Below, one piece after another: positions 1,776 to 32,635 of a stretch of 64,000 bases of DNA. Numbering within the stretch: the first letter of the stretch is position 1; the number at the start of each line of letters is the position of its first letter. The stretch lies in contig NC_134029.1 in the NCBI RefSeq assembly GCF_964204645.1, positions 529,501 through 593,500 on the forward strand. The letters run 5' to 3'. The stretch comes from Tubulanus polymorphus (Eukaryota > Nemertea > Palaeonemertea > Tubulaniformes > Tubulanidae). A program made the position numbers and the translations under genes. The notes under the pieces were generated by a model that saw nothing but the letters and a program-made list of their open reading frames with translations, had not been told where the DNA came from and did no database searches.

Positions 1776-4700
1776 ATGGCGCCGGCTTCTGTGATATGTT
1801 TAATCGTTATGTTATTTCTTTGTTTTACTGGCAGTTTATCGGCTAATGACGCCATCGATGTGGGTAAGTTTTTTTCCCAGCAATGTTTTCAGGTTTCTTG
1901 ATGTGGCGATGAAGGGTTTGGAAAAACTATACGGGAACTCTTAAAACTTCATTCAGTTAATCTAACCACCAGTAAAGAGATACGCCTACTATTGCCTACT
2001 GGTCATCGATTTTTCATATAATTCAAGGAGAAACAAACTTAGCATATAAGGTTTATATCATCTCTACTGGTGAAGTCATAATACTTTGATAAACTTTGTG
2101 ACTGGTAAGAAATCTAACCCTATAAGTCGTCGACTTTTATGTGGATTTATAAGGCACCATTATTGATTGTAATTTGATTAGGTTTGGTTCAGAGAAGCGG
2201 AAGTGATGTCAAGTTCAGCGGTGATCTGATTGGTCAATTCCGATCATTAGTCGAAGAGGGACAAATTGAAAGTGAAAAGATACGTTTAACTCGCGTGGTA
2301 GTTCACATAGACTGGGGCCTCGAGCGACTCTTACAAGGTAAATAGGGCTTAACAAATTTTCTTCAAACCAAGAAAAGCTTGACGTGTCCAAAACATGATC
2401 ATGAACAATCCCATAATTGATGATATCTGAGTTGTTTATCTATCAAAAAATTTCGAGAAAATCTCGTTGAGAAAAACAGCAATGATTGCACCTTATGGTC
2501 TGTAGACTTAGAAAGACTCGCTATATTTAGCCAAAAAAGAACTATGGTGATCTCTACCTGCAAAACACACCTGATGAGATATCTATTATGGATGGAAAAG
2601 GTTTAGGTTTCCACACGATGAGTGTACGTATGTTTTGTAAGGTTTAGTTGTGACGATGATATCCTCTATTCACATGTAACGGGAGAAGGAAATATTGATT
2701 CTATACGTTTCATCACCGATGTAAACATCATCTCTCATAAATATAAAAGCTGAATTTATCAACCTGATTCAGACTCGATGCTGGCAGATATATCAATGAC
2801 CATTGTAACGAAACAGGGACCTCAAAAAACCCGTCATGATGATACATGATTCCCATCCACAGTAAACACACACACAGGACCAAACACAGTCATCAGTCTG
2901 TGTGCAATATTTATACAGAATGCTGTTAGATTTATCTGAAAGGTCCAATCATTATCAGACAAATACAAGTCCTGAAACACCTTCAGTCACTTGCAATATA
3001 AAATCACACCACAAAAAATGAAAAACGAGACCGAAATGTTTCCTATAGTTAACATTAGTTCAGTGAACATTTCGATTAGTACATCGTAACAGTGATATCT
3101 TTGAGGAAACATGTCACACTTTATTCTACAGGATCTTATATATTTTTACAAAACGGACTCAGATTGTTTCATCAATGTTTTAGGCTCCATCACCCTTTCC
3201 ATTACTTATTCATTATCACTAATATTTTCACGTTCCGACCATGTCCTGATAGTCATCTCCAGTCATACCATAAATATAAGCTCAACGAAACATCATGGAT
3301 TCTGTTTTCATTCTTAGTGCTCAGTAATATCGTTACAACACAGACTATCAGTGTTTCTATCAATGGTTTCTATCACGTTCTGGTTAAATATTATGTAGAT
3401 TTCATTTTCAGTTGTGGACGAAATGTTTGAACAAAACATTAGTTTAATCATAAGCGCAGAATCTGAGAAAAACTATCGCTACATCGCGCAAGAGTTACAG
3501 ATACCGTATTTAGTGTTAAGGGAACCAGTTACTGATGACGTCACTCCGTACATGTACACTATGTCTACTGTACATGCACATGTATTAGGAGAAGCCGCTG
3601 TTGATTTTATCCGCATGAGTAAATGGACAGAAATGACTGTTATCTATTCTGGAATAAAAGGTGATTTTACCAACGTTCCCTTTGACTAACTGGGAACTGT
3701 ATTTTAGACTCAGAGATGGTGATTTCTTCTTTAAAGGTCTGCAGATATTCGGTATATTGAGGACACATCTATTCGACTTGGACACCGAATACACGGAATA
3801 TGAATGGTTGATGAATTGGTCTTTGTTTAGAGATCGGTTACTGAAATTTCGGCGACAAAACCGTAGATTATTTGTCGTTATTTGCGAAAACGACAACTTA
3901 GAAATAATTCTAAAACAGGTAATAAATAACAGAACTCATCTGAGCAGAAGTGAAAGAAAATCCATGACTATAGGCTGCAGGAACGGCCCTGGGGCCAGGT
4001 GTTTAAAAGACTCAGACACGTGGCTATAAAAATTGAATTATAACCATTGTATTTAGCCGATTGATAACTTGAAACAATTTTGGAGCAAATGCCTCCTGAA
4101 CCAAAATATGTTGTACACGAAAAAACGTAAAATGATTTAAAACCGAATAAACGATTCTTATGATGATTAAGAAAAATTACCGGTTCAAACATTTGACATG
4201 ATATAGAATATTCGAGAATCTGCTATAGTAAAACTTTTGTAATTACTATCAAAACTTTATTTTTTTAGGCGTTAGAAGTGAGTCTTCTCGGGCATGGTTA
4301 TATTTGGCTTTTCATTTCCGAGGTAAGCGTATATGATAACATCGTCAGTAGAAATAACTCCAGTCTGTTGTTTTGACAAAGCTTCGGAATCCATAAAAAT
4401 GTCAGCGTTTTAAACTAATATTGTTCTTTCGATATCGAAGTAGCAATTCGTATTGCCGTCTAAAAGAACTATTAAAATGTCGTGAAGTGTTTGAGTGATA
4501 TTACGAAAGAACGGATTTCCATTAATCTCTGAGAGTCACTTGACGTGCGTAATGTTACTATTTCACTGAGCGTGAAGTAGTTCTTATGTTGAATGGTAAA
4601 AAAACTGAAAGCACTGTAAAAAGTACTGTTGACCTTGCTTGTGTGCGATTATGAAATCTAGAAAATACCAACGCAGAGAATTCCTTGAAATTCCTATACA

Positions 4701-7700
4701 TATACAGACCCCTCAACATATATAGATGTAATTCCTTCCAGACTGGTTTTCATTATTCTGATTGATTATAGCAACACGATATGCTTAGCTCTTATCCTGA
4801 ATTATAACCCAGGCATAAATCTAAGTTCCCTCCAGACCGAACAGATTTTTCGGATGGATCGTAAAAAATAACAAGAAGCTAAGGTTTTATCGTAGGTCTG
4901 AAACCAGTCTGTATTTTAAGCTAATAATTCGAGGCAGGTTTTAATGATAGAAATTCAAATCGTCCAAGTTCATCATATTGTTAAAATATACCGAACCAGA
5001 TGTTTTCAAGCTCTAACTGTCGACCTATTAGACTTCTAATTTTATATGAAGTAATTAATGCAGGTCTCAATTCGTTGACAACGGCCGGTTGACTCAGTAT
5101 ATAAGAATATATAAGTTGTTTTTGAACACGACTATCATATAACACTAAGAGAAGTTATCGGTTAACAATATCACGAAGGACACAGATTGTTTGCACCCAA
5201 TGAGTTGCAACACTTAATCAACCCTTTAGAAAATATCAATTTCAGGGACCAGGCTGTGGGTTTGTTTAATTTCAGGACCAGGCTGTGGGTATGTCTAATT
5301 TCAGGACCAGGCTGTGGGTATGTTAAATTTCAGGACCAGGCTGTGGGTATGTCTAATTACAGGACCAGGCTGTGGGTATGTTTAATTTCAGGATCAGGCT
5401 GTGGGTATGTCTAATTTCAGGACCAGGCTGTAGGTATGTTTAATTACAGGATCCGGCCGTTAGTAGGTTCGACTTCTCCGAATGGTTAGACACCGAAACA
5501 GAGTTTCTACTATTGACAACTAGTTCTTCCACTGACGATCGGATACCGCCTGATACCGAGAATCAAATCTATCGAGATACTCTGATACTTATCAATGATA
5601 CGATCAGTAATGCGCCGACCGACAGGTGTCGCCACAAGAAATGTAACCAACTGGGCAAGAGAATTCTACATTACATGAAGGCAAGGTTTCGCGCGTCTTA
5701 GAGTTGATCAGAATGAAAAAAAAACATAGTGAAACTGAAAACCGAAAACTGATATAGAAAATTCTCTTTTTGCAGACGTTGAAAAATTCTCCGTCGAAAT
5801 CTGCATCATCTACAAAATTGGTGACGTTCGACACTAGACACAGGCGTGATGACGTCACTCTTCACTTTATTGTTCTAACTAAAGAAGCATACAAAAAGGT
5901 AAACGAAATTGAAATCAAAAGTAAAATCAAAAGGAATATTTTAAATGGGGTTAACAGAGAGGGGATATGTTTAGGGGATAGAGTTTATTTATCATGAATG
6001 AATTAATTTAGGCTAGTTGCACAAAGTATGGTTTAGAAGACAAATTTAAGACCATCTTTGTTCTATATATATTTGTTCTAAAAGAACATTCTCAAAATGT
6101 TAGACCACGTTTAGACTATAATTCACGACTGTACAACTAGGGCCTGCAGGATTAAAGAATTCAGCCCCCAAAAAATTGAACCCGGTTTCGATTCCAATAA
6201 AGTAGTTGATCATTTTTCAGATAGGAATCTGGCGTCAGAACGGAGGGAAGTCAATGAATGAAAGACTCGAGTTACACTCGACATCGCTATTCGGTAAAAG
6301 TCATTTACTTGGAAGTAAGAAAAATCCTCTACGCGGACGAAAACTGAAAATTGTTACTTTACTGGTAAGAGTTACTTCAACATCTTTGACCATGATTGCA
6401 TTCATGAAAACATTTAATCATAATTTACTTAATGCATCTGATTGTAGGAATTCATGTAAACATGTATGAAATAAAACATAGAATCTTTTTAATTGTTTGT
6501 CTAATCGTTTTTGCTTTTTATTAGGAATCACCTTTTGTGATGTTAAAGAAAGGACATGAATTTATGTCTGGTAATGATAAATATGAAGGATATCTGATCG
6601 ATTTGATTCATCGTATCTCCGAGAATGTCGGATTTAAATACGAACTTTACGAAGTGGAGGACGGAAATTTCGGTTCTGTCGATAAAAACGGTACCTGGAA
6701 CGGATTAATGGCGGATGTTATCAAGAAGGTAAGCGAAATACCCGGAAAATGGGGATGTAATTTTGGGAATTATGTAGAGAAAATATTGTGAGAGAACGAT
6801 GGAATACTGTTGATCAACAAGCTGTCCTGGTCACCGCAGCTAAGTGGTCACCACAATGATCAGACAAACTTGCGAACTCGACAGGTCACTACTATGGTCT
6901 AGTGGTGAGCACGCTCAGCTGACATGCTGGAGGTAGCTGGTTCGAGTCCTGCTAGGGCGAACTCTTTTATCAGATCGGAGAATCCGTTTGCCTCCAATCG
7001 TACCCTTTTTTTGTTCACGTGACTTTTTGGAGTCTTCGAAACCTCCTTTCTGTCGAGGTGGTGTGATTCGGATTTTGTGTGGAGCCAACCGGAGATTTCG
7101 GACGGAGACTTCGGAGGTCATAATAGAGTACGCCCCTAGGGTTTCCGGCGATGTAGGTTTAGGTTTAGGAATAGAGATTACTGAGGGTCAGGGTTATGCA
7201 CAGAGGCTTAGGTGAATGTATTACCCAATTAGAGAATGCTTTCACTATCGAAATTTTAGTTTTTGAACAACAATTTTTCTTTTCATTATATTTGCAGAAA
7301 GCTCACATGGCATTAGCCTCTATAACCATCACTCGAGCTCGCGAACAAGCAGTAGACTTCACTAAACCGTTCAAAAGTGTCGACATCAATGTATTAATTC
7401 GTCGTCCCAGACACGAGAGTTCATTCCTACAGTTCCTCGAACCGTTTACTCCGGCAGTTTGGATCCTATTTCTGTGCGCCCTCTCCGGGGCTGCGCTCGT
7501 TCAATTCGCTATCGAGAAATTCACTGTCGATGCCGCACGGCAGGGGGAGCCACCAGTTAGTTTAAAGGATAGTCTATGGATGTATTATGCTAGTATCGTA
7601 AGTCAAGATTCGGGTAAATACCCGCAGGCAAACTCATCACGATCGATGACTTGTACCTGGTGGTTTTTTGGTTTGATGATTATTTCCGCTTACACGGCTA

Positions 7701-10700
7701 ACCTCGTATCGTTCCTAACCGTATCCAAGGCTAAACTAGCCATCGATGACGTCATAGATTTAGCTTCCCAAACCGATATCAAATACGGAAGTGTCCAGAA
7801 CAGTCGCACGGCGGATTTCTTTAGGTTGTCTCCGGATCCTGTATTCCGGGAAATGTGGAAAAGCATGAAAGATAACATGGTTAAAGGTACAAAGGCTGGT
7901 GTAGCGAAAGTGAAGTCACCTAAAGAGAAATACGCCTTTATTTGGGATTCCCAGGTAAAACAAAGCAATCTCTCCTTTCAATGATTTCTAAATAAATCCC
8001 CGTTTCTTCTATGAAAATAAACAAAAGTTCCCAATCGATAACAAAGAAGCTACAATGTAACTCATAACACGTGATGTTTTATTACGAGAAAATGACTAGG
8101 GAGATAACAGTTGAGCAACAGAAGACTCGTGAGGAAACATTCATTGTGAATATTATTGAAAACATAATCTGAATGTACATGTACATGTAATTTACTCGCA
8201 TTTTACAGATTAGACATTTCTAAAACTGAGTAAATTATGTTAGGTTTCTGAGAATTGATTTTCACTTCGCAGTCAACGATGATTTCATCCCTAACAAATG
8301 AAATGTTGAATATATCTCACTTACGAGAGATTTATCAATATCAAAACATACAGGCATCAGTTGCATACTATTCAACACGAATACCTTATTATGAAACAGT
8401 GGTGGATTTAGGGAAGGGGGGTCAGTAGCACCGGGGCACGTGCTGTCCCCTTCTGGATTCGTTATTGATTATTGCCCCAAGATTCCGGTCATATACAGGA
8501 AACTGTGTTCATCTTATTCTACAGGTAAATCTGTATTCAGCGACTCAGAATTGTGAAATGATGGTTGTTGGTCATCCTCTAGACGAGAAAAGATACGGGA
8601 TTCCTGTACCAATTGATGCTGAATACAGGGATGTTTTAACTTTAGCGATACTCGACTTACAATATAAGGGTTTCATCATGGAAACTGAACGCAAGTAAGT
8701 TATACTAAATTCTTTACCGAGTTTGTAGAGTTTGTTCACTGGATCTGTGGAAGATAGGATCACCCTAATTACATACAACAAAACAAACGCTTACACAATA
8801 TACATATTAAACTACAAGTAAACATTGTATTTCATTTGGTAAATATAAATTTAGTAACTTAGTATAAAGTAACCACATTAAACCACTCACTAACAGTAAA
8901 CATACAACAATTCGTGAGGATCAATCTTTACAATAAATGTACTACACACAAAATGTCTATAGTTGCCATGGTTTATTTGTAACTGATACAATTGAAGTTT
9001 ATTTCACTGAATTTCTACAGCGGATTTTCATACAGAAAAATTCACGAATTTCTCGTCCCAGTAAAAGATATATGTAGAAATTAACCGTATAATTAGAAAC
9101 TTGAAACTGATAGAATATTTCAAAGAGAAATTCCCTCAGCTCAATTGAGACTGGTAAAAATACAGTAATTGCGGAAGGAAGTGTAAATGTCGCAAATGCG
9201 AGTGAAACTGTTACGAGCATTATTGTCGTACGTTTTGTTTTTGTAGTTTTCTGATCGGACGAAACTATTTTTGAACCTCTGAATAATTGAATTATTATTA
9301 TAGAATTTGATGTAATAACCAACGATAATGGTAGAAAATATACGTGTACAACATATGTCATGAAAAATATGAATTGTTGAAATATCTCATAGTAACATCC
9401 GATACTATTAGAAAACTTCATAATCACTGCTGCATAAACACCAATTACAAATGCATTTATTACAAAAATAATCCCGATTGTGCAGCGGGCGAATTTCGGT
9501 GTACATATCAAACGAGATGTGAACGGGAAGAGCACAACTGCCGCACGTTCTAGAGATATCGCCACGATTAACCAAGCACTACTAGCACCCATAAAACCCA
9601 TCACAAATTCATAGATTTGACAATTGATCAGTGAATTCATGATGAATATAGGACCAGCGTTTAAATGCAAGAGAATAAACTGTAAAACAGGCATCAGTGT
9701 ATGACTGATACAGAACGCAAAGTCACTGAGAGATAAAACGATCAGATAGTTAGCGTAAGATAAACTGCGGAATCTACGACTTATCATTATCAGGAAAGTA
9801 GCTGAATTGCCAAATGCTCCTAACACGAACAAGATAAGCAGAATGACCATAGATACAGAACGGTAGATTCCAGACCTGTTCTCCACAGACATGAGTAATG
9901 AGTGACTGTTGTACGCGGGACCGATCTGCATCTGAGTAGAATTCATGATCATATGAAAAAATCTGTCTCCTGTTTGGAATTAAATGTGAAAAGAAATCCA
10001 AACATATAATAATCAAGTCATATTCATGGCAGCAGCTAATCGACATTTACTGGAGACGAAATTATTTACAACTTACAACAAGATTTACTCAGATTTGTTA
10101 GATGTTTATTGTGTAAAAATAAATATGTGTCTGAATCATATCTGCAAAGAAATAACTTTGAATTGTAAAATATCGACTGAGTTTGCTGTAAAATCGCGTT
10201 CGTGCAAAGCCGGTATTATCAGAATGTTACAGGTGTTACAGACGCGACAATTTAATCACATAATGATCGCATTTACTCGAAAACTGTCTAATGAATGGTA
10301 TGATTTATTAACAAGTAATTAATTTCCTGGGCCCAGTCTCTCTTACAGAAATCCAATATCTATCTATCTAGATTTTTGGGCCTTGGTTTCCTGAAGTTTC
10401 ATAAGTATTTTATCATATCTCGACAAACTCTCTTAAACACAGCTCCTAAACCTCTCGTTAAACATTACAAATAGCCATCCGATATTCTTTATTTTCTGTA
10501 TTTTCTGTATTTCGGTTTCGACTCATCATTAGTCACTGATACTCGATGATTATTTCATTGAATTTCTACAACAGATTTTCATGCAGAAATATTCACGTAT
10601 TTCTCGTCCCAGTAAAAGATAAATGTAAAAATTAATCACATAATTACTTATTTGCAATTGATAGAATATTTTATAGAGAAATTCCCTCAGCTCAATTGAC

Positions 10701-13700
10701 ATTGGAAGGAATACAGCTAGAGATGAAGGAAGCGTAAATGTCGCAAATGCGAGTGAAACTGTAACAAGCATTATCGTTGTACGTTTTGCTTTTGTAGTTT
10801 TCTTATCGGACGAAACTATTTTTGAACCTCTGAATAACTGAATTATTATTACAGAATTTGACGTTAGAATAAAAGATAAAGGTAGAAAATAACCGTAGAC
10901 AACAACAAAGTTGAAAAACTTAATTTGTTGAAATATTTCATAATAACAGCCAAAATACTGGTCAGAAAAATGAATCATAACAAACGAGGGAACACCTAAA
11001 ATCGAAGCGTGAGTTACGAATATAAACATAATTGTAAATCGGGCGAATCTCGGTGTACATATCAAACGAGATTTGAGAGGGAAGAGAACAACTGCCGCTC
11101 GTTCTAGAGATATCGCTACTAAAAACCAGACGCTGCTCGCGCCCATAGAATTCATAAGAGCTTCATAAATTCGACAAGTGATCAGTGAATTCATCAGGTA
11201 TATTGGATTGATGTTTGCGTACAAGAGAACAAACTGTAAAACAGGCATCAGTGTAAAAGTGATACAAACTAGAAAATCACTGACTGACAAAGCGATCAGA
11301 TAGTTAGCGTAAGATAAACTGCGGAATCTACGACTTATCATTATCAGGAAAGTAGCTGAATTTCCGAAGGCTCCTAACAGGAACAAAATGATCAGAATGA
11401 CCATAGATACAGAACGGTAGATTCCAGACTTGTTCTCCACCGACATGAGAATGATATACACGTACGATCGACCAACAGCCAGCGTCTCGGTTGTAGAATT
11501 CATGATTGAATCAATATTCTGTGTGTTTGTACTGACTCACAACACGCATATTGGAAAGTTATTCTGTAGTTCATGAAATCCGCACATATATTGATGAAGT
11601 CTCATTTGTGAAAGCTGGTTTTTAACCATTGTTAGAAATGACATCTTTTGTTGACCACGAATGGAAAAATCGATTCTCAGATTCAACACAATAAACTCAG
11701 ATTTGTGAATGCAGCTGCTGACGAAATTAAATCATCTTTTTTCAGATAACGTCCTTTTAATAAACATGATCCAATAGAAATAAGTGCTTTAACTGTAGCC
11801 ATTGGTCACCCAGAAATTCTTTGTTCGCACCAGTTTCACAAAAATGCGTTGAAATTTTGTCAGCATTGATTATATAGACGAATTCGGTCACGGTTCCATG
11901 AAATTTCATTACTATTATTCAACATTCCAATTTAGATTATAGTTGACGTTTGTTTCACGGAATTTCTACAACAGATTTTCGTACAGAAATATTCACGAAT
12001 TTCTCGTCCCAGTAAAAGGTATATGTAGAAATTGACGATATGATTACTTAATTCAAATTGAGTGAAAATTTCTATGAGAAATTCTTTCTGCCATGAGGAG
12101 CTTGGTAATAATACAGTTATAGTAGTTGGAAGTGTAAACATTGCAAATGCGAGTGAAACTGTTACGAGCATTATTGTCGTACGTTTTGATTTCGTAGTTT
12201 TCTGATCGGACGAAACTATTTTTGAACCTCTGAATAACTGAATTACTATAACAGAATTTGATAGAATTATGAAAGTTAAAGGTAGAATAAAAACGTATAT
12301 GACATACGTCATAAATAGTATGAACTGATCAAAAATATTGTAGTAACATCCGAAATCATCAGAAAATATCATTATTACTATATGGATGATACCGATAACA
12401 AGAAAATTAATTGTAGAAATTATCACAATAACACATCGAGCGAATGTCGGTGTACATATCAAACGTGATTTGAACGGGAAGAGAACAACTGCCGCACGTT
12501 CTAGAGATATCGCTACTATTAACCACGAACTATTGGCACCAGCAAATGATGTCAGAGATTCGTAAATTCGACAACTGATCAGTGAATTAATCATCAAAAT
12601 ACGACCGGTGTTTAGATGCAAGAGAACAAACTGTAAAACAGGCATTAAACTAAAACTTGTGCAAAACGTCAAATCACTGACTGACAAAACGATCAGATAG
12701 TTAGCGTAAGATAAACTGCGGAATCTACGACTTATCATTATCAGGAAAGATGCCGTATTTCCGAAGGCTCCTAAAAGAAATAAGATAATCAGAATGACCA
12801 TGGATACAGTACGGTAGATTCCAGACTTGCTTTCCAATGACATGAGAACGATGTAACTTTTGTAAGGTCGACCAACAATCGGCATCTGAGTGGAATTCAT
12901 GATTGATTCAGAGTCTAGTGTTCTCACTGACTCTCTCCTCACATATTGGAAAATAATTTGATGCGAAACTAATTCACATCGAATATTCATAAAGTCATAT
13001 TCAGCATTTGTTAGAGATAAAATAAGTTTATTCACCATGAAATTGAAAATCAATTCTCAGTAACTCAACATAATTTCTTCCGATTTGTAAAATGCTTACC
13101 TTGAAAAAACAATTCTAAAGTAAGGGAAATCCGCATTGATATCTATGAATTATTTTTTTTCTTTAAACAGCTCGTTCGTGATGAAATCTATCGCAAACCA
13201 AGAAATGAAAATCAATTCTCAGAAAAACGTACACAATGAATGCAGCTTGTAAATTAAATCATTATCTTCAGATAACGACATCATGAATATTTCATAAACA
13301 GAATCCTATGGTAATCAGTGCTTGAACAGAAGCCACAGGTCACCCAGAAATCTTTGTTAGCGACCTGTGCACGTAAACAGTGATGCATTTAATGTTCAGG
13401 ACAATTGTATCAAACAAATGATGGATGACTATCAAGAATTAGATTTCGTTATAGTATCTGTTAATTCACCAAAAATGTGAGAAAAAAGTCAGTGCAGAAA
13501 ATATGACACGATCATCCTGTACAAATCGATATTGAATACAGGGAAGTTAACTTAAGCGATAGATAGTTCAATCACTGGATCACCTCGTAATCATGACTAC
13601 AAACTTGTCGCACCATCGAGTATCATCAACATTTGCTAATTGAGCTCGTTATGGCCACTGGTCACTCATGACCTTAAGTAACTTAGTGTAGTTACTACAT

Positions 13701-16700
13701 TAAACCACCCACTAACAGTAAACATACAACAATTCGTAAAGATCAATCTTTACGATAAATGTATTACACACAAAATGTCTATCGTTTTCATCGTTTATTT
13801 GTAACCGATACAATTGAAGTTTATTTCACTGAATTTCTACAGATTTTCATGTAAAAAAATTCACGAATTTCTCGTCCTAGTAAAAGATATATATAGAAAT
13901 TAACCACATAATTAGAGGCTTGGAATTGATAGAATATTTCATACAGAATTTCGCTCAGCTCAATTGAGATTGGAAGGAATACAACTAGAGATGAAGGAAG
14001 CGTAAATGTCGCAAATGCGAGTGAAACTGTTACAAGCATTATTGTTGTACGTTTTGCTTTCGTAGTTTTCTGATCGGACGAAACTATTTTTGAACTTCTG
14101 AATAACTGAATTATTATTACAGAATTTGACGTTAGAATAAAAGATAAAGGTAGAAAATAAACGTAGATTACATATATCATAAAATATATGAATTGTTGAA
14201 ATATTTCATAGTAACATCCAAAACTATCAGAAAACATCATAATAATTACTGCATAAATACCAATTACCAATGCATTCATTACAAAAATAATCGCAATGAC
14301 ACTTCGGGCGAATTTCGGTGTACATATCAAACGAGATGTGAACGGGAAGAGAACAACTGCCGCACGTTCTAGAGATATCGCTACTATTAACCACGAACTA
14401 TTTGCACCCATAGAATTTATCACAAATTCGTAGATTTGACAATTGATCAGTGAATTCATCATGAATGTTGGACCGATGTTTAGATGCAAGAGAACAAACT
14501 GTAAAACAGGCATCAGTGTAAAACTGATGGAGAACATAAAATCACTGATAGACAAAGCGATCAGATAGTTAGCGTAAGATAAACTGCGGAATCTGCGACT
14601 TATCATTATCAGGAAAGTAGCTGAATTTCCGAAGGCTCCTAACAGGAACAAAATGATCATAATGGCCAAAGACACATTACGGTGGATGCCAGATTTGTTC
14701 TCAACAGACATAAGTAACAAATAACTGTTGTACGCAGGACCAATCTGCATCTGAGTAGAATTCATGATCACGTGAAAATACAAGTCTCCTGTTTGATATT
14801 AAATGTGAAAAGAACTCCAAACAGTTATTCACAAAGTCGTATTTATGGCAGCAGCTTAAACAACAATAGTTTGAGATGAATTAATGTATCTGAACTGTGC
14901 ACAAAGTGAAAATCTATTCTTAGAAACATGACACAAATTACTCAGTTTGTAGAATTTATTTCGTAAAATATGGATCTACCCAAACACCCAGCTAACGATG
15001 ATTGTACAGCACAGTTGACAGTAGACATTCTTCTGACAGTAGACACCCGTCGGAATTCGTGCTATCTTCACTGACAAATAGGGTCTTGCTATTTGTGGAG
15101 GATATGGCATATACAAGCATGAATATGTAGTCTCGCTATATTTTCTGTTGCAAAAAATATTTTGCAACATGTGAAACATATGCATCAAACCCTGGACTCT
15201 CTTAGAGTCCATAATCAAAGTATTCTTACATGTGAAATCCAAATCAAGAACAAATCGGTTTGGAAAATAAACGAATGCAACTTCATCAGTGTATCTTATC
15301 AGCCCGCTCTAAACAAATGCGCCTCTTGTCATTGATCGGGATTTTCCGTGAGGACATCGCATAATCGAAAAGTTTATAAACTATATTTATTAAATTCTAT
15401 ACTTCTTTATTCTATAGTTATTAAATTCAAGTATAAATATAACAATTAATACTAAACTGCAAAATTAACTTACCTGATTATAACACAAAATGTCCATGAT
15501 TATCTCTTTTCATTTGTATGTTATACTCATATTCAATTAGTATATTTACTCAACAGTTATTTCACTGAATTTCTACAACAGATTTTCGTGTAGAAATATT
15601 CACGAATTTCTCGTCAAAGTAAAATATACATATAAAAGTTGACAACATAGACTGACCGCAGTCCGGTCTAATATAACATCCTAATTCTTTTTGAAGGTGG
15701 TGGGCAGTTGGTGAATGTGGAGACCCTACTAAAGTACAGGCTGATACAGAAATGCGCCCCCTGACGGCGGATACATTAGCAGGGTTGTTTGTTATGTTGG
15801 GAGGAGGAATTATTCTAGCTTTGATCATTTCCGTGATCGAGTACAAAAAAGCACGTGACATCAGAGGAAATGTCGAGGTGGCTTCAGAGAAGGTAAGACA
15901 ACTCCCGATATTCCACCGTCCCATTTACCGCCACCCCCGCCTACCGCCAGGTTTTCTCAATGTACATCTCTATACAAATACATAGTAAAACATCACCGAC
16001 ATACCGCCATACTCTCTATACCGCCAAAATCATTCTGCACCGATGTGGGCCTGCGGTCGGGGGTTGACTGTTTATGTATGAAGGAACTTGGGATTTCTTA
16101 CACGCCATAATTACCAGACATTCGTGACGTCAGTTACGTAATTCAAATCTCCGTAATTGTCTTAAAACTTTTACTGATACAAGTCATAACATCAGTCTCT
16201 GTATTGAATGTGCAAAAATCTATTTCTTTCGAAATCAGAAAAATGGAAACCACAGAACCTAAAGTAACCTCAGTACCCATAGAACCCTCAGTGCCCATAG
16301 AACTCACAGAACCCATATAACCTAATGCATATACAGCCAATGATGAATATATTCACAATCGAATCCTACAAATGTTCATTAGATTCACTTTATTTTTTGT
16401 TTGGGTCTCTGCTAGGATATAAGCATATAGATTTATTTTCCATACGTATATCGGGTTTTCTTTATACACGTAATGGAGTTAGTTGATAGTGTTATCGAAG
16501 TTCTGTAAGATGATACTATCACGACTAAACATCACGATTACCCCCGTTTAATAGTGTTACCAGAAATAACCGAAGAAAATAGTTCCTATAGTTTTAGAAC
16601 CGTATCGTTTTACACACTCTAGTCCCATCTCAAATACAAAACCACTCTAGAAATCAATCATACGTTTATCCTGCTAATGCATTTCTGTTAATAATAAGAG

Positions 16701-17083
16701 TTGTAATGAGTATAAATAAAAGAGGAGTTATGAGTGCTCGCGTTGTTGCTAGAAATTCGATTAGTTCATCAGCTCAATAGTGTCTGAATTCAATAATAGC
16801 GAAAACCTAACGTAAAGGTCATAGATGACGGTCTATATGACGCATGCACCCATGGATTTTAGTCTTCCTGATGTCAAATCCTTAATATCAGGTTTAAAAT
16901 CTTACAATTTAAAAGTTGTAGAAATTATGCATCTTCATATTCTCAGCGATGGTTAAACCTGCTGTATGTATCAGCGATCGTTACAACTATATAAATCCTA
17001 TATATTTACAGAATACAAAGCCACCAGTAACAACTGAAGACCATGAACTCGAGGAAAAATGCAAATTAAAATTTCATGAGTAA
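1776..17083 (+). CDS. iGluR-1: AMPA/kainate-type ionotropic glutamate receptor subunit (13 coding exons, 841 aa)
   Basis: Predicted ligand-gated cation channel subunit of the plasma membrane. Exons: 1776-1863, 2182-2337, 3412-3660, 3737-3918, 4269-4322, 5450-5680, 5776-5898, 6221-6364, 6525-6728, 7298-7954, 8525-8694, 15697-15892, 17012-17083. All phases join without a stop, giving a normal length for the family. Visible in order: signal peptide (MAPASVICLIVMLFLCF), amino-terminal domain, S1 (NGTWNGLMADVIKK; ligand Arg in TRAREQ), M1 about 529-549, pore loop about 567-589, M3 with SAYTANLVSFLTV about 607-619, S2 ending FIWDSQ, and M4 about 779-802. Odd points: Ser at the Q/R site (about residue 579), Asp 694 in place of the AMPA ligand Glu, one GC-AG intron (5681-5775), and a ~7 kb intron 11 containing antisense GPCR genes. 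The exon 11 to 12 join is supported by exact correspondence with iGluR-2 (phase 2, then TGG TGG). Assigning it to AMPA, kainate or another invertebrate subfamily needs a phylogeny. Confidence 0.9.
5236..5467 (+). repeat. ~30 bp tandem repeat carrying splice-acceptor-like motifs, merging into iGluR-1 exon 6
   Basis: About seven copies of a 29-30 bp unit: a TTTAATTTCAG-like acceptor, then GACCAGGCTGTGG, then GTATGT. The final copy runs into the real acceptor and first bases of iGluR-1 exon 6 (TTAATTACAG, exon at 5450, starting GATCCGGCCGT). The array therefore looks like expansion of the intron 5/exon 6 boundary itself. Confidence 0.85.
6012..6141. mobile_element. Possible MITE-like inverted-repeat element in iGluR-1 intron 7
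   Basis: The left end GGCTAGTTGCACAAAG resembles the reverse complement of the right end (CTGTACAACTAGGGCC), and further imperfect pairing is visible inside. There is no coding capacity. I cannot confirm a target-site duplication. Confidence 0.35.
6895..6972 (+). other. tRNA-derived (SINE-like) element in iGluR-1 intron 9
   Basis: An A-box-like stretch (TGGTCTAGTGGTGAGC) is followed about 35 bp later by a B-box (GGTTCGAGTCC) with partly paired T-stem flanks. The acceptor stem does not pair, so it is not a functional tRNA. A similar sequence near 60.6 kb shares the trailing GCGAACTC. Confidence 0.45.
8999..9946 (-). CDS. GPCR-a: class A (rhodopsin-like), peptide-receptor-like GPCR, nested in iGluR-1 intron 11
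   Basis: Intronless seven-helix receptor of 315 aa from the MNSTQMQ start; an in-frame Met lies two codons upstream. Family marks: TM1 GNSATFLIMISRRFRSLSYA, TM2 LSLSDF, the Cys pair (INCQIYEF at TM3, GCYYEIF in ECL2), ERAAVVLFP in place of DRY, and NFYIYLLLGREIREFF in TM7 and helix 8 in place of NPxxY. Two N-glycosylation sites near the N terminus fit surface exposure. It resembles expanded invertebrate FMRFamide/neuropeptide-like receptors; the ligand is unknown. It lies antisense inside an intron of iGluR-1, with AATAAA-like sequence downstream. Its 3' flank is nearly the same as that of GPCR-d. Confidence 0.85.
   Translation of the reverse strand: MNSTQMQIGPAYNSHSLLMSVENRSGIYRSVSMVILLILFVLGAFGNSATFLIMISRRFRSLSYANYLIVLSLSDFAFCISHTLMPVLQFILLHLNAGPIFIMNSLINCQIYEFVMGFMGASSAWLIVAISLERAAVVLFPFTSRLICTPKFARCTIGIIFVINAFVIGVYAAVIMKFSNSIGCYYEIFQQFIFFMTYVVHVYFLPLSLVITSNSIIIIQLFRGSKIVSSDQKTTKTKRTTIMLVTVSLAFATFTLPSAITVFLPVSIELREFLFEIFYQFQVSNYTVNFYIYLLLGREIREFFCMKIRCRNSVK
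10550..11503 (-). CDS. GPCR-b: paralogous class A GPCR nested in iGluR-1 intron 11
   Basis: Intronless, 317 aa, starting MNSTTETLAVG. It has the same architecture as its neighbours: TM1 GNSATFLIMISRR, TM2 LSVSDF, TM3 Cys in ITCRIYEA, ERAAVVLFP, GCYYEIFQQ in ECL2, KTTKAKRTTIMLVTVSLAF leading into TM6, and NFYIYLLLGREIREYF in TM7/helix 8. It diverges most in the extracellular half of TM2-TM5, while ICL1, ICL3-TM6 and the TM7 tail are almost unchanged. That is what one expects if G-protein coupling is conserved and ligand recognition varies. Ligand unknown. Confidence 0.85.
   Translation of the reverse strand: MNSTTETLAVGRSYVYIILMSVENKSGIYRSVSMVILIILFLLGAFGNSATFLIMISRRFRSLSYANYLIALSVSDFLVCITFTLMPVLQFVLLYANINPIYLMNSLITCRIYEALMNSMGASSVWFLVAISLERAAVVLFPLKSRLICTPRFARFTIMFIFVTHASILGVPSFVMIHFSDQYFGCYYEIFQQIKFFNFVVVYGYFLPLSFILTSNSVIIIQLFRGSKIVSSDKKTTKAKRTTIMLVTVSLAFATFTLPSSLAVFLPMSIELREFLYKIFYQLQISNYVINFYIYLLLGREIREYFCMKICCRNSMK
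11932..12900 (-). CDS. GPCR-c: paralogous class A GPCR nested in iGluR-1 intron 11
   Basis: Intronless receptor. The frame is open back to 13053, but alignment with its paralogues places the start at 12900 (MNSTQMPIVG), giving 322 aa; the extra 51 upstream residues are probably 5' UTR. Features: GNTASFLIMISRRFRSLSYA (TM1/ICL1), LSVSDL (TM2), ISCRIYES (TM3 Cys), ERAAVVLFP, GCYYNIFDQ (ECL2), SKRTTIMLVTVSLAFAMFTLP (ICL3/TM6, with one residue left out of order here: K-S-K precedes), and NFYIYLLLGREIREYF. The C-terminal tail is slightly longer than in the others (ends KQTSTII). Function inferred from family only. Confidence 0.82.
   Translation of the reverse strand: MNSTQMPIVGRPYKSYIVLMSLESKSGIYRTVSMVILIILFLLGAFGNTASFLIMISRRFRSLSYANYLIVLSVSDLTFCTSFSLMPVLQFVLLHLNTGRILMINSLISCRIYESLTSFAGANSSWLIVAISLERAAVVLFPFKSRLICTPTFARCVIVIISTINFLVIGIIHIVIMIFSDDFGCYYNIFDQFILFMTYVIYVFILPLTFIILSNSVIVIQLFRGSKIVSSDQKTTKSKRTTIMLVTVSLAFAMFTLPTTITVLLPSSSWQKEFLIEIFTQFELSNHIVNFYIYLLLGREIREYFCTKICCRNSVKQTSTII
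13511..13566 (+). pseudogene. Decayed partial copy of iGluR-1 exon 11
   Basis: The stretch ATCATCCTGTACAAATCGAT, then TATTGAATACAGGGAAGTTA and CTTAAGCGATAGATAG, parallels the iGluR-1 exon 11 segment around 8570-8655 (CCTGTACCAATTGATGCTGA, ATACAGGGATG, TTTAGCGATACTCGAC). It has small deletions and an in-frame stop, and it is non-functional. It lies just 3' of GPCR-d, as exon 11 lies 3' of GPCR-a, so it marks the edge of the duplicated segment. Confidence 0.6.
13821..14765 (-). CDS. GPCR-d: paralogous class A GPCR nested in iGluR-1 intron 11
   Basis: Intronless, 314 aa from MNSTQMQIGPAYN; the frame is open six codons further up to 14783. It is closest to GPCR-a: same N terminus, and similarity continues well outside the ORF (13675-13820 against 8850-9000, and the upstream flank near 14.8 kb against 10.0 kb). 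This indicates a segmental duplication. Motifs match the family: GNSATFLIMISRRFRS, LSISDF, INCQIYEF, ERAAVVLFP, GCYYEIFQQ, NFYIYLLLGREIREFF. It has lost part of the final CCRN motif (KICRNSVK). Putative neuropeptide-type receptor, ligand unknown. Confidence 0.84.
   Translation of the reverse strand: MNSTQMQIGPAYNSYLLLMSVENKSGIHRNVSLAIMIILFLLGAFGNSATFLIMISRRFRSLSYANYLIALSISDFMFSISFTLMPVLQFVLLHLNIGPTFMMNSLINCQIYEFVINSMGANSSWLIVAISLERAAVVLFPFTSRLICTPKFARSVIAIIFVMNALVIGIYAVIIMMFSDSFGCYYEIFQQFIYFMIYVIYVYFLPLSFILTSNSVIIIQLFRSSKIVSSDQKTTKAKRTTIMLVTVSLAFATFTLPSSLVVFLPISIELSEILYEIFYQFQASNYVVNFYIYLLLGREIREFFYMKICRNSVK
15557..15649 (-). pseudogene. 3' remnant of a fifth nested GPCR copy
   Basis: On the minus strand this encodes the TM7-helix 8-tail end of the GPCR family (YVVNFYMYILL, stop, REIREYFYTKICCRNSVK). 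The Gly codon of the usual LLGREIREYF is changed to TGA, and no TM1-TM6 sequence lies upstream. The 3' flank (CACAAAATGTCCATGATTAT) also matches the 3' flanks of GPCR-a and GPCR-d. It sits about 45 bp from iGluR-1 exon 12. Confidence 0.8.
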
Positions 17084-17285
17084 ATGTGCATAGATTATGA
17101 AGCTTAATAATGATGCAGTTTGTTTTTTGTATTACAGTACATTTATGACATAATTAATGATTTTGTCACGATGAAGAATAATGAATTATCTTATATGACA
17201 ACATAGGCCCGTATATAATGTATTGATTTTAATGTTAATGTACTTATTGATGATACATAACTTGCAATGTATTTCAGGTTATTTG

Positions 17286-17291
17286 AATAAA
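17286..17291 (+). terminator. Polyadenylation signal of iGluR-1
   Basis: AATAAA about 200 bp after the TAA stop of iGluR-1 (17081-17083), in an AT-rich 3' UTR. Confidence 0.6.
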
Positions 17292-18229
17292 CTTCATCAT
17301 TCACCTAAGTTTTATTTCAATTATATTCGTTAGAATTATTTCTGTTTTGATGATTCGGAGGATTATATCAAATGAAGTTGATAGGAACAAGAAACAAGAT
17401 TTCAGATTCACAAAACAATGGTATTATAGTTTCATTAGTCGCGCTCTCTCACCTGCCTTGTCATAACAACATTGGTGACACTTTGTGTGTGAAATAGACC
17501 CCCAGAAACAGAGAAGCATGAACTCCGTGGACAGAGAGGGCGGCAAATCCAGACCACAGACTATTTGTACCATACAAATGCTGTAAAAATTCCATCCACT
17601 GCAAACTGCCGATCATAAAATGGACTTTTACAAACGTGTATTGACACAGAGTGGTGTTTACCCAGACTATGCGGGACATCAATAATATCCATTCTCACAT
17701 TATAATATGATGTAATGGATTAAATGTTTATTTTCGATACTGCTGCTGCTGCTGCTGGTGGTGATGCTGTAACCACATCGGTCTTTGAATTATGCCGGAT
17801 GTTCATCAGATTTCTGAATGAATAAGATAATCGAACATTTTATCCAATCATTTATCGTTTAATGTACACAAACTGGCAGGAACTATCGACAAGTGTTTGA
17901 TCTAATCAAACTCCTCCGGTTATAGGTATCTACAGTTTCTACAGAGTTCATCTTCATATTGGCGATTGGTTGTCGGCGAGACCAATTGTATATCCGACCC
18001 CTCGTTTTATCCATTAGCCAGTTTTACAATACGCCCCTGGTAGTTATTTCGAAGCTTCCAGACTTTGCTGGGACGAAACTAAACAAAGCTGTCCCTCTCC
18101 CTTTCCCTTCTTGCATCAGCAATTCAGCCCCAACAAATACCTCGAGTTCTAAAAGATGTTTATGATCAGGCGCTCATTCAAAGGATATTTCCGCTTGAGT
18201 ACAGCAAGATGATGTCGCCATCACCGAGG
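17292..18229. other. Intergenic spacer between iGluR-1 and iGluR-2
   Basis: No credible exon. It contains a short imperfect CTG/GTG repeat at about 17740-17772. Small open frames on both strands lack splice sites or recognisable features. Confidence 0.5.
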
Positions 18230-22300: not shown

Positions 22301-24174
22301 GCAAGAGTCAAGAATTGTGAACCTAATATTGATAAATTTGCCAATATTTATCAAAGACTTGCCTTCGATTGAATTAACACAAGCAAACTGTCAGACTAAA
22401 ACTAAGACTAATTAACGATGTTTACATTTTTTAGGTTTAACTGAACAACTGTTTAATTCAGCACATTTTTCTATTTTTGTTTGAACGGCTGAGATGTCAA
22501 TTTCTAGTTCAGAAAATTTTATCAAAGTATCAATTTTTTTCTTCATAGCTTCACAGCTGTTTAATTCGGCATATTTCCCCTCGAATCGTTTCTACATTTT
22601 TGTTTGAATTGCTTAGACGTAAATGTTAAAAAGAAAAGTTGAACATCTTTCCAATGTTTATTTGTTTCTATTTTCAGAACGCGTCTCTGGCCGGGGCTCC
22701 GTTAACTATCAACGTACAGCGAGAAGAAGTTATCGATTTTTCCAAACCATTTAAAACAATCGGAATCAGCATCCTTATCAAACGACCGCAAGACAACGTA
22801 TCATACTTTCAATTCATGCTTCCGTTATCCGTCAACGTTTGGATGTTGATAATCATAGCGTTAGCGTTCGTCAGCGTTATAATGGTTGTCATAGATACGA
22901 TTTATCCGGCTACTGATGGCTCCGTCAGGTTCAATATTAAAGAAAGTTTATGGTTCAATTACGGCGCTTTGGTTCAAGCCGGAACTGAGAATCTACCGCG
23001 AACTATTTCAGGGCGGATGCTGGCGAGCACGTGGTGGTTTTTCTCGCTGATCATTATATCGTCTTATACGGCGAATCTTGCGGCTTTCTTAACCGTGAGT
23101 AAATTCAACACTCCGATCAGTTCTGTAGCCGACCTAGCCGCGCAGACCGAAGTTAAATACGGCACCGTTTGGAACAGTCAAGTTATGTCGTTTTTTGAGA
23201 ACAGTAAAATTGAACATTTCAAACGCATGTGGGCCTACATGTCGACAACGAACCCTCAATCGATGGCGATGACGTCACAGGAAGCGTTCGAGAAAGTGGC
23301 GAACTCTAGCGGCGATTACGCGTTTCTCTGGGATTCCCCAGTCGTGAAATATAAAACCACCCAAGACTGTAGAATGATAGAAGTAGGTCACGCGTTCGAT
23401 TCGAAAGGCTACGGTATAGGGGTACCTCCTGGTGCCCCCTATCGGGATTCGTTAACGATGGCTATACTGCATCTCAACGAGAAGGGAGTTCTTCAAAGAC
23501 TCGATGAGAAGTAAGCACAATGCCTTAGAATTTCGTAGACTTCCGTTATGCAAATTAGCTAATTTGAATATTTGATTGACAGGTGGTGGCGTGATACGAA
23601 ATGTGCAGATGAGAATAACAAGTCGGCGACAACTCAACACACAGCTTTATCGTTGAATATGGTGGCTGGAGTTTTCTTCTTTTTACTCGGAGGAACTGCT
23701 TTATCCGTAGCCGTAGGAGTTATGGAATGGCTAATGAACCGTAGGCGAAAGGTATGAATCGCTCTTCTCCTCTTCCTTCCATCTCCCTATTAGACGGGAG
23801 TGGATTATAGTATATCTCATACGATAATGCTTGATGTACTTTGCACAGAGTGATGGTCGTTTCTTGTAACGAATACGAATATTTATTACACTCCAACCAT
23901 TCCCATGGTATATGGAGGAAAAACAGTATTTACAATTATTTACATAAACAGTAGATAACGTTATCAATGCATAAGCGCCTTCTGGCGGTCAAAGTCTGAA
24001 TCAGAATACTCGTTGAACCCGATTGTTGTATATTTTCAGCGCAATGATCCGAAAAATGAGATGAAGAGAATGAGTAGCACAACAAACCACGAAGAACCAG
24101 TTCTTCTTCGCGACCCGTTTACTGCCATTAAAAACCACGCAACGCTGAACGATAATAAAAATGTTCATATCTAA
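19302..24174 (+). CDS. iGluR-2: AMPA/kainate-type ionotropic glutamate receptor subunit (12 coding exons, 840 aa)
   Basis: Exons: 19302-19386, 19627-19779, 20003-20251, 20448-20626, 20982-21035, 21324-21551, 21628-21732, 21816-21944, 22024-22227, 22678-23510, 23583-23751, 24040-24174. Phases are consistent throughout. Domains: signal peptide (MAFCVRVIVLVGVILLCC), amino-terminal domain, S1 (GYSIDLLNEIAKLL, SGEWNGIVGELLKG), APLTINVQREEVIDF with ligand Arg about 477, M1, pore GALVQAG with Gln at the Q/R site (about 562), M3 SSYTANLAAFLTV identical to the vertebrate consensus, S2, KWW plus Cys, M4, and a basic cytoplasmic tail ending NKNVHI. The pocket has Val (about 631) and Asp (about 681, FLWDS), as in GluN1, instead of the AMPA Thr and Glu; this suggests glycine or another amino acid as agonist (inference). 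It is the tandem paralogue of iGluR-1 but keeps the S2 region in one exon that iGluR-1 splits in two. Confidence 0.92.
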
Positions 24175-25842: not shown

Positions 25843-26386
25843 CAATTCAAGAAAAAACATAGAATTTATTGGAATTATCGGATTGATTTGAGAATCTGGT
25901 ATTCTGTAGTTAAAAAGATGATACAAATATATCTAAACCAATATCATGACCCACTAGGTTTTTTGGAAAACGAACTTTGTGTTATATTTTCAGTTTTTAT
26001 GTTTGATTCAGTAGATTTTATAATATATATTTCATCATGGGTTGAATACTTTGTATTCACAATTCTGAACTTCAATTCAGTTATATTCTATACAATATGC
26101 GTTTCAGAAAATCTGAATAAATTGTGTAATATGAGAAAATGTATCTTTGCTTTGTTCAAACAATGAATTTCGAGTAAAATTCGACTTCATTTAATGTATC
26201 CGTGAGTGCAATAGTTTTACCAACTAAAAGCAGTCAGTGCAAACAACATTGGTCGATTCTATATGTTGATTAGTTTAACAAACTCTCTGATGAATGCTGA
26301 ATAGCTGTCGCTATTAAGATGTCATTCATTACTAACCGTGTAGATATCGTTTGCCAGAATGTGACGAAACACTGATTGAATCAAAC

Positions 26387-27340
26387 ATGAATTCTACCAC
26401 TGAGAAACCCGCTCTCTACTTTAACTCTTCTGGTCTGATGTCACTGAATGAGAGATCTGTTGTCCACCGTACTGTGTTACTGGTCATTTTGACGACCCTG
26501 TTCTTGTTAGGAGCCTTCGGAAATTCAGCTACTTTCCTGATAATGATAAGTCGTAGATTCCGCAGTTTATCTTACGCTAACTATCTGATCGCTTTGTCAG
26601 TCAGTGATTTTGTGCTTTGTCTCAATTATTCATTTATACCTTTTTTACAGTTTGTTTTCTTGCATCTAAAAACCGGTCGTATTGTGATAAATTCACTTTT
26701 AAGTTGTCAAATCTACGAATTTGTCGTCGTTTCGATGAGTGGTTGTAGTTCGTGGTTAATAGTAGCGATAACTCTAGAACGTGTGGCAGTTGTTCTCTTC
26801 CCGTTCACATCTCGTTTGATATGTACACCGAGATTCACCCGGTTGGTCATTATGTTTATCTTCATAATCAACGCACTAGCATTAGGTGTTTACCAAGGAC
26901 AAGCAGTTAAATTTTCAGAAAAGTTTTCCGGATGTTACTACGAGATATTTGACCAATCGATATACTGGACAGTCTACGCTGTCTTTGCTTTACTTCTTCC
27001 TTTGACTTTTATTCTAACATCAAATTCTGTTATAGTTTTTCAGTTATCTAGAAGTTCGAAAATAGTTTCGTCCGATCAGAAAACTACAAAATCAAAACGT
27101 ACAACAAAAATGCTTGTAACAGTTTCACTCGCGTTTGCGATATTCTCAATTCCAAACTGTATGTTTGTATTCGTACCAATTCCCGCGCATCAAAAAGAGG
27201 TTGTATTAGACATTTTGAGTCAAATCGTAATGTGTAACAACTCAATTAATTTTTACATATATCTTTTACTGGGACGAGAAATTCGTGAATATTTTTGCAT
27301 GAAAATCTGCTGTAGAAATTCTCTTCCAGGACATGGCTGA
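26387..27340 (+). CDS. GPCR-e: class A GPCR, same family as the nested receptors
   Basis: Intronless receptor of 317 aa. The frame is open from 26351, but the start MNSTTEKPALYF at 26387 matches the paralogues in sequence and total length. Motifs: GNSATFLIMISRRFRSLSYA, LSVSDF, LSCQIYEF (TM3 Cys), ITLERVAVVLFP (DRY replaced by ERV), GCYYEIFDQ (ECL2 Cys), SKRTTKMLVTVSLAF (TM6 entry), NFYIYLLLGREIREYF (TM7/helix 8). It lies outside the iGluR genes and on the opposite strand to GPCR-a to -d. Its extracellular half has diverged and its C terminus ends SLPGHG. Putative peptide-type receptor; ligand unknown. Confidence 0.85.
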   Translation: MNSTTEKPALYFNSSGLMSLNERSVVHRTVLLVILTTLFLLGAFGNSATFLIMISRRFRSLSYANYLIALSVSDFVLCLNYSFIPFLQFVFLHLKTGRIVINSLLSCQIYEFVVVSMSGCSSWLIVAITLERVAVVLFPFTSRLICTPRFTRLVIMFIFIINALALGVYQGQAVKFSEKFSGCYYEIFDQSIYWTVYAVFALLLPLTFILTSNSVIVFQLSRSSKIVSSDQKTTKSKRTTKMLVTVSLAFAIFSIPNCMFVFVPIPAHQKEVVLDILSQIVMCNNSINFYIYLLLGREIREYFCMKICCRNSLPGHG

Positions 27341-27413: not shown

Positions 27414-28163
27414 ATCTGATCGCTTTATCAGTGCATTGCAAATTATCAGACCTGGCTGCACAAGTTTTAGTTTAATGCCTGTTTTACAGTTTATTTCGTT
27501 ATAGATGATCCAATATACCTGATGGATTCACTCATAAGTTGCCAAATCTATGAATTTACATTGGGATGCGTATCGTCAAATGGTTCGTGGTTAATAGTAG
27601 CGATATCTCTAGAACGTGCGGCAGTTGTTCTCTTCCCGTTCACATCTCGTTTGATATGTACGCCGAAATTCGCTCGATTCACCATTGTAATCATTTTTGT
27701 AATGAATGCACTTGTAATAGGCATTCACCAAGCCGATATAATGGAGTTTTCTGATAGTTTTGGATGTTACTATGAAATGTTTAGTCAATTCGTACTTTTT
27801 GCCAAATATGTTGGCCATGTTTTTCTCATGCCTTTAACTGTAATTTTTACAACAAATTCTATGATAACTATTCAGATATTCAAAGGTTCAGAAATAGTTT
27901 CGTCCGATCAGAAAAGTACAAAAGCAAAACGTACAACAATAATGCTTGTAACAGTTTCACTCGCATTTGCAATGTTTACACTACCATCCACTATTTCTTC
28001 ATTTCGACCAGTGACCGCGAAACAGAGGGAATATCTTTTCGATATATTGAGTCAAATTTTATTGTGTAATTATGTTGTCAATTTTTACATTTATCTTTTA
28101 CTGGGACGAGAAATTCGTGAATATTTCTGCATGAAAATCTGTTTTAGAAATTCAATTATCTGA
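27414..28163 (+). pseudogene. GPCR-f: 5'-degenerate GPCR copy
   Basis: An intact frame covers TM3 to the tail (27522-28163, 213 aa: ISCQIYEF, ERAAVVLFP, GCYYEMFSQ, TMLVTVSLAF-like TM6, NFYIYLLLGREIREYF). Upstream, a recognisable TM2 piece (AACTATCTGATCGCTTTATC at about 27411) is followed by frame-breaking changes and stops, and TM1 is missing. A seven-helix protein cannot be made from it. The long conserved frame suggests the damage is recent. A truncated five-helix product from the internal Met at 27522 is possible but unlikely to signal. Confidence 0.75.
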
Positions 28164-28912: not shown

Positions 28913-29308
28913 TATCGATTTATTGATTAAATTGTCGCATCTGTGCACCAGTTATAACAATGCAATTTTACAACCAGATTATTCAAAGTTATTTGTGTGC
29001 AGAATATGTCAATGTATATGTAACGCAGTTGAATTTCACTTTGCGTTCAACAATGAATAATTTCATATCTTACAAATGATGAACATATGTCATATATAAG
29101 ACTTCATTAGTATCTGTGAGGTTTTCTTTCACGTGTTTAAATTTACCAACCATATGAGCAAAAGATATAGTCAACGCAAACTGTCAGAAACCTGGATCAC
29201 TGGTCAATTATGTTGTTGAATAGATACAAACTCTATGATGTGAGACTTCATTACTTACCGTGTATATATCATTTGCCAGTATGCGACAAAACATTGATTG
29301 AACTAAAC

Positions 29309-29440
29309 ATGAATTCTACTCAGATGCAGATTACCACTCTCTACTTTAACTATACCGGTCTGATGTCATTGAATGAAAGATCTGTTGTCTACCGCACTGC
29401 GTTACTGGTCATTCTGTCTATCTTTTTCCTGTTAGGAAGG
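29309..29440 (+). pseudogene. GPCR-g: 5' fragment of a GPCR, cut off inside TM1
   Basis: Encodes the family N terminus (MNSTQMQITTLYF, LMSLNERSVVYRTALL) up to FLLG in TM1. There, paralogues continue GAFGNSATF, but this copy switches to unrelated sequence (GAAGGTCAAGACTATGAACG). The breakpoint falls where the GPCR code itself looks like a splice acceptor (CTATCTTTTTCCTGTTAG). Confidence 0.75.
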
Positions 29441-32119: not shown

Positions 32120-32472
32120 TGTGGGGGAGGGGGGGGGGGGGGTTGAGGCGGCTATTGCAACAACGGATCAGCGGGATCGATTCGATCTGTGAAATAATTA
32201 TTAACAGTAAATAAACAATAAGATCAAGCATCAATAGTTGCGCTGATACCGGTGACAACAGCTGCAATTCGACCAATACATATCATATGGTTTATGTTTG
32301 GATCCCGGGTTCGAGCACAACATCACAGCGGTATTAGTTCCCAGAAAATATTCCTCAAATTATTTAAAAAATTCGAAATAGCACCAAAAACGGTACCGTA
32401 ACTATAGCCCCAATGCTAAGGGGGGGTCCCCAACTCTAACCCTAAAGGCTGGCTTATGTCGACAAGCAACGC

Positions 32473-32635
32473 GACGCCTACTGACTCCTACCGACTCCTA
32501 CCGACTCCTACCGACTCCTACCGACGCCTACCGACTCCTACCGACGCCTACCGACTCCTACCGACTCCTACCGACGCCTACCGACTCCTACCGACTCCTA
32601 CCGACTCCTACCGACGCCTACCGACTCCTATCGTT
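32473..32635. repeat. 10 bp tandem repeat (GACTCCTACC / GACGCCTACC)
   Basis: About sixteen decamers alternating GACTCCTACC and GACGCCTACC, ending exactly where LINE endonuclease sequence begins. It is translated in the same frame as the LINE remnant (repeats of Thr-Asp-Ser-Tyr-Arg and Leu-Leu-Pro-Thr-Pro). Confidence 0.85.

Follow-up and report, generated by a model that had tools for sequence, protein, structure and literature searches.

Antisense intronless G protein-coupled receptor genes in one intron of a nemertean ionotropic glutamate receptor gene, with copies of the adjoining host exon

Genes for G protein-coupled receptors (GPCRs), even whole clusters of them, are already known from introns of other genes, as the available excerpts on two human loci describe. 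P2RY5 (LPAR6), a GPCR gene with one coding exon, lies in reverse orientation in intron 17 of RB1 (PMC2361346), and P2RY12, P2RY13, P2RY14 and GPR171 form a cluster in an intron of a MED12L isoform (PMC7754106). Here we describe a locus of this kind in the nemertean Tubulanus polymorphus (assembly GCF_964204645.1; genome searched, 268 Mb in 77 contigs). Within positions 529501-593500 of contig NC_134029.1 (C5), a stretch of 64,000 nucleotides that we call the window, four intronless GPCR genes (W1-W4) and a fragment of a fifth occupy, in antisense, one intron of iGluR-1, a gene for an ionotropic glutamate receptor (iGluR). The P2RY12-14 cluster is likewise said to run opposite in direction to its host, MED12L. 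The RB1 case differs in having one GPCR gene, a 72-kb intron and a tumour suppressor as host. At MED12L the host is a mediator subunit, and the excerpt of the report does not mention copies of host exons (PMC7754106). What this locus adds is a receptor as host, a density of four genes plus one fragment within 7 kb, and a copied host exon. Searches of the open-access literature, judged by titles and abstract openings, turned up no account of GPCR genes inside an iGluR gene.

The host gene gives one spliced reading with a single terminal stop, and every junction is GT-AG except for a GC donor after exon 6. Its best sequence match in the PDB was the kainate receptor GluK3 (E = 2.8e-93; best stretch, residues 302-799), in an alignment that crosses the KWW junction into M4, and the part coded by exons 10-12 matched Pfam Lig_chan at 4.9e-29. 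The gene model thus places a ligand-binding domain, the pore segments M1-M3 and M4 in one protein, as in kainate/AMPA-type receptors. According to the original prediction, exon 11 ends in phase 2 at 8694 and its only continuation that gives KWW, a Cys and M4 starts at 15697. This holds in an 841-residue reading over 13 exons, where splicing to the acceptor at 15696/15697 (TTCTTTTTGAAG/G TGG TGG) brings the sequence back into frame. We also looked for an alternative M4 exon close to 8694, using tblastn with two M4 queries against 8695-17500 (E up to 10). The exon at 15697 was matched (4.6e-42 and 1.0e-12) and no other M4 exon was found in that interval, where the one remaining hit covered 6 residues (E 3.3). 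The same phase-2 KWW junction had been predicted in iGluR-2 with an intron of only 72 bp, and it is present there and in iGluR-0, whose intron measures 315 bp; in several more distant iGluRs, among them C1:3678797-3679027 and C7:3169063-3169359, the match runs uninterrupted across the junction. Since the paralogous introns are this short and the distant genes match straight across, the 7,002-bp intron is most simply an expanded short intron.

Four intact intronless receptors on the opposite strand had been reported for the 7 kb between exons 11 and 12, and we recovered all four as minus-strand open reading frames, each with a 7tm_1 match of 1.5e-15 or better (Table 1). The Pfam profile was covered from position 8 to 258 or 260 of its 260, which places them in class A, and W1, W3 and W4 are 74%, 68% and 76% identical to W2. 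In the gene model all four are internal coding genes lying wholly within one host intron. For W3 we took the start at ATG; the open-reading-frame list begins it earlier, at TTG. The motifs DRY and NPxxY, typical of class A (rhodopsin) GPCRs, were not found in the aligned receptors: LERA replaces DRY, with the Arg kept, and NFYIY replaces NPxxY. An AlphaFold model of W2, built from a 6-row alignment, reached a mean predicted local distance difference test score of 36.5, too low for the model to inform on the seven-helix fold. The ratio of nonsynonymous to synonymous substitution rates (dN/dS) was 0.20-0.47 for W1 against ten relatives and 0.20-0.52 across the 55 pairs of 11 family members, well below 1, as expected for GPCR genes under constraint. 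An AATAAA signal overlaps the stop codons of W1 and W4 and recurs shortly after each, and in W2 it lies about 57 bp past the stop. The coding match of the truncated fifth gene stops 41-47 bp short of exon 12.

Copies of the host exon next to the array bear on how it arose. A search with exons 11 and 12 returned, at C5:473885-474058, another exon 11 that reads on the minus strand. This ectopic exon lies about 64 kb upstream, inverted, and adjoins three further GPCR genes (U1-U3); exon and receptors are oriented to each other as they are in iGluR-1. Searches beside it for exons 9, 10 and 12 revealed no copy. At this site a tblastn match (iGluR-1 residues 675-715, 58%) reached 22 residues before exon 11; we rejected this as a chance extension of the match, because only about 5 of the 22 residues agree and a DNA scan for exon 10 was blank. 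We also observed that the ectopic exon is flanked on both sides by similar GGTCACTGG...GTGACCG stretches.

A decayed, partial copy of exon 11 lies inside the intron itself. We found this relic on the 3′ side of W4 by aligning exon 11 with its flanks to the whole window; its local alignment score was 59, and the highest among 1000 shuffled 1-kb tiles was 35. In a DNA search of the genome it was recovered at E 2.5e-5 and its spacer at 5.2e-17. The query for the ectopic unit, 361 bp long (112 bp of exon 11 plus spacer), gave 5 matches at three places, all on C5: the ectopic unit itself, the real exon 11 with the flank of W1, and the relic together with its spacer, arranged as in the query. Three places is a lower bound, as such DNA searches can miss weak matches, and the collinear order of the relic unit comes from the whole-window local alignment together with the genome DNA search. 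We then compared six exon segments of iGluR-1 (exons 6, 9, 10 in two parts, 11 and 12) with the window and C5:467501-484000. Extra copies were found only of exon 11; for the other exons, no copy near the array scored above 33, except the true exon 10 homologue in iGluR-2 (42). A unit of exon 11, spacer and GPCR is visible twice besides the real one: beside W4 with the exon decayed, and about 64 kb upstream, inverted, with the exon identical. In a tree of 28 family members (8 local and 20 from the best matches elsewhere), W1, W2, W4 and U1-U3 form one clade (94/96) and W1 stands beside U1 (94/88), both supports falling just below the program's 95/80 star.

These data suggest, with a probability of about 75%, that an intronless GPCR gene inserted into the iGluR-1 intron and that the array then grew by duplications spanning exon 11. 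A chemoreceptor-like GPCR gene would have landed, on the opposite strand, in the short intron that precedes the M4 exon and multiplied there by duplications that also included host exon 11. The duplicated unit would have been exon 11, spacer and GPCR; the redundant exon 11 would have decayed within the intron, as in the W4 unit, and duplication of the unit would also have given the inverted U array about 64 kb upstream. This order of events is inferred. Each GPCR would be transcribed from its own promoter, and the whole 7-kb intron would be spliced from iGluR-1 like any other. The nesting would then chiefly reflect the spread of a very large gene family, and its antisense orientation would be why it is tolerated at this locus.

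Several observations weigh against this account in its simplest form. No exon 11 relic was found beside W2 or W3. A search within 200 bp of the W3 stop codon gave no AATAAA, and the 28-member tree places this gene apart from the clade that unites W1, W2 and W4; not every copy therefore need descend from a single insertion. In pairwise alignment the spacer and GPCR flank of the relic unit match well, and the relic exon part falls in another register. The upstream exon 11 is identical to the host exon although the adjoining U3 differs from W1 at a synonymous divergence (dS) of 0.28, so that one simple duplication does not suffice and the account requires either gene conversion at a later time or a further event. 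Finally, both the 8694/15697 splice and the transcription of the GPCRs are predictions from the genomic sequence.

The identity of the ectopic exon leads to an explanation that concerns timing and is compatible with insertion followed by duplication. The exon may have arrived beside U3 in a recent, separate event, whether by gene conversion between GPCR repeats in inverted orientation or by the recent duplication of a short segment, and we rate this as somewhat better than even. There is no change at the approximately 36 synonymous sites of exon 11, and dS between W1 and U1, U2 and U3 is 0.28-0.35; at one shared rate, the chance of seeing no change is 7.9e-5 (dS 0.276) or 7.0e-6 (dS 0.352) by a simple Jukes-Cantor calculation. 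Over 30-codon windows, W1 and U3 share 97-98% identity at either end of the gene and 59% in its middle. On the other hand, the W4 relic shows an old linkage of exon 11 and GPCR, so a recent event probably acted on an existing unit, and constraint on the synonymous sites of exon 11 may be another reason for the identity. Among the seven local GPCR copies, differences peak at residues 161-215 (W2 numbering), presumably around extracellular loop 2 and transmembrane segment 5. Amino acids differ there in 44% of pairs versus 20%, and synonymous differences are 29% versus 17%. The raised synonymous divergence in this region hints at conversion of the GPCR ends. As a separate cassette, the region is only suggestive: the synonymous contrast was reached by 1 of 2000 random column sets, but by 15 of 317 sliding windows.

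The nested genes belong to a large family. Searching the genome with W2 gave 1956 rough candidates, of which 125 were scored, each at E < 1e-117; in 121 of these 125 the matching stretch is free of stop codons. The exact pattern FRSLSYANY occurs 249 times in the genome, and the reversed pattern, used as a control, does not occur. The first 100 of the 249 matches listed cover only contigs C1 to C3; for neighbours in this set that lie within 10 kb, the strand is shared in 45 of 48 cases, so that a same-strand tandem array is the norm among the listed family places. Sixty-two of these 100 matches lie in a dense cluster at C2:6.8-8.2 Mb. The case for a chemoreceptor-like family, large, single-exon and clustered, is circumstantial. 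By description it resembles the AcCR receptors of Aplysia, which are lineage-specific, mostly single-exon, clustered rhodopsin-like GPCRs; members of subfamily b have 319-364 amino acids, and an Arg at the end of transmembrane segment 3 is highly conserved, the one residue there that the excerpt of the paper stresses (PMC2700072). Nesting in a host gene is not mentioned in that excerpt (PMC2700072). Proximity to iGluR genes appears to be confined to this locus: 76 Lig_chan exon matches fall into 52 groups at 8 kb, and a GPCR lies within 100 kb only at three, those of the C5 trio, when the 125 scored places of the 1956 candidates are taken as the GPCR set, a choice by which further hosts could be missed.

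Another explanation is functional coupling, in which transcription of iGluR-1 silences the four GPCR genes in antisense, transcription of the GPCR genes prematurely ends iGluR-1, or both, making the two mutually exclusive in any one cell. The geometry of the gene model allows for it: as the original prediction stated, every complete iGluR-1 transcript must cross all four GPCRs in antisense. An in-frame stop stands right at the donor (AAG TAA), and retention of the intron would terminate the receptor immediately past exon 11, without M4. Insect odorant receptors are not GPCRs. Still, antisense long noncoding RNA over tandem odorant-receptor arrays in ants points to a possible coupling route here, and upstream receptors in those arrays reportedly appear suppressed by it, according to the excerpt of a preprint; the arrays differ in that the antisense RNA starts at bidirectional receptor promoters and not in a host gene (PMC12393541). 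Interference has been reported between nested genes in Drosophila (PMC8467205) and for human nested genes (PMC3192792), as the excerpts of these papers state. Nothing beyond geometry speaks for coupling in T. polymorphus, however. Host-direction AATAAA signals are at chance level (10 versus 10.8 expected), giving no excess of this polyadenylation signal; the raw counts of ATTAAA were 10 on the plus and 3 on the minus strand. Since same-strand arrays are the norm in the family, the antisense state of the four GPCRs counts as one event, not four, which weakens coupling as a default. So does the finding that opposite-strand nesting is the usual state of simple nested pairs in human (220/296, 74.3%) and mouse (193/248, 77.8%), and mammalian nested pairs reportedly show no extra expression divergence (excerpt of PMC8467205). 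We therefore regard coupling as unlikely. A more specific form of it, likewise unlikely, makes iGluR-1 an antisense selector: neurons in which channel transcription runs through intron 11 would silence the four GPCRs, and GPCR transcription would truncate the channel before M4. If true, the decision for one receptor type or the other would be built into the locus. Transcripts that stop early within intron 11 would, as a consequence, encode a channel without M4.

It is very improbable that the exon at 15697 belongs to another gene or that iGluR-1 is non-functional. The joining of its exons is read from genomic sequence, but the single open reading has splice sites at every junction, KWW and M4 agree in position and phase with two paralogues, and no further M4 exon was found in the interval. 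Misassembly of the GPCR array into the intron, for which the related, inverted array about 64 kb away might speak, is hardly credible, as the window has no N bases (C5:464001-467500, upstream of it, does read N), the DNA of the upstream GPCR copies diverges by 12% or more from that of the intronic ones, and the decayed exon 11 within the intron links the array to its host.

Table 1. Features of the iGluR-1 locus. Positions refer to the window unless prefixed with C5.
Feature	Position	Strand	Details
iGluR-1 host gene, kainate/AMPA-type	1776..17083	+	13 exons, 841 aa; spliced reading
iGluR-1 exon 11	8525..8694	+	phase 0 in, phase 2 out; end CGC AA/GTAAGT
Intron 11, carries GPCR array	8695..15696	+	7002 bp; donor GTAAGT, acceptor TTTTTGAAG
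GPCR W1	8999..9952	-	317 aa, single coding exon; 7tm_1 1.5e-15
GPCR W2	10550..11503	-	317 aa, single coding exon; 7tm_1 3.1e-19
GPCR W3	11932..12900	-	322 aa from ATG, single coding exon; 7tm_1 5.9e-16
Decayed partial exon 11 copy, 3′ side of W4	13496..13561	+	same strand as exon 11; local alignment
GPCR W4	13821..14783	-	320 aa, single coding exon; 7tm_1 1.8e-16
Fifth GPCR, truncated 3′ end	15560..15655	-	tblastn best match 15560-15649, E 2.3e-10, 80% over 30 aa
iGluR-1 exon 12 (KWW, Cys, M4)	15697..15892	+
iGluR-1 exon 13, C-terminal tail and stop	17012..17083	+
iGluR-2 homologous intron	23511..23582	+	72 bp, too short for a GPCR; phase 2
Intact GPCR copy outside intron	26351-27340	+
5′-truncated GPCR copy, downstream of iGluR-2	27522-28163	+
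GPCR fragment, downstream of iGluR-2	29273-29437	+
Ectopic exon 11, exact copy	C5:473889-474058	-	170/170 identical, AG and GT sites intact
iGluR-0, third tandem iGluR, just upstream of window	C5:526392-528318		phase-2 KWW junction, intron 315 bp

We made three further observations in the neighbourhood. The ligand-binding domains of iGluR-0, iGluR-1 and iGluR-2 read WD (FLWDL, FIWDS and FLWDS) at the MES of GluK3, which we take to be the position of a ligand-contact Glu, and the ligand of these receptors may not be glutamate. Directly before exon 6 of iGluR-1, a 29-bp unit is repeated 7.3 times (window 5238-5451); its units contain a CAG resembling an acceptor and a GTATGT resembling a donor, and the array extends to the real exon 6 acceptor, so that it looks as if the splice site itself had multiplied. 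Three open reading frames at window 32456-34583 look, judged by eye, like pieces of a reverse transcriptase of the long interspersed nuclear element type.

The decayed and the identical copies of exon 11 would be a record of a nested array growing by duplications that included part of the host, and not by separate insertions alone. If the duplication reading is true, the host kept using one exon 11 and ignored a second in the same gene. Reports from flies and mammals differ on interference between nested genes, as the excerpt of a comparative paper describes (PMC8467205), and the locus is a naturally occurring system in which the possible silencing of nested receptors by transcription of their host could be examined.

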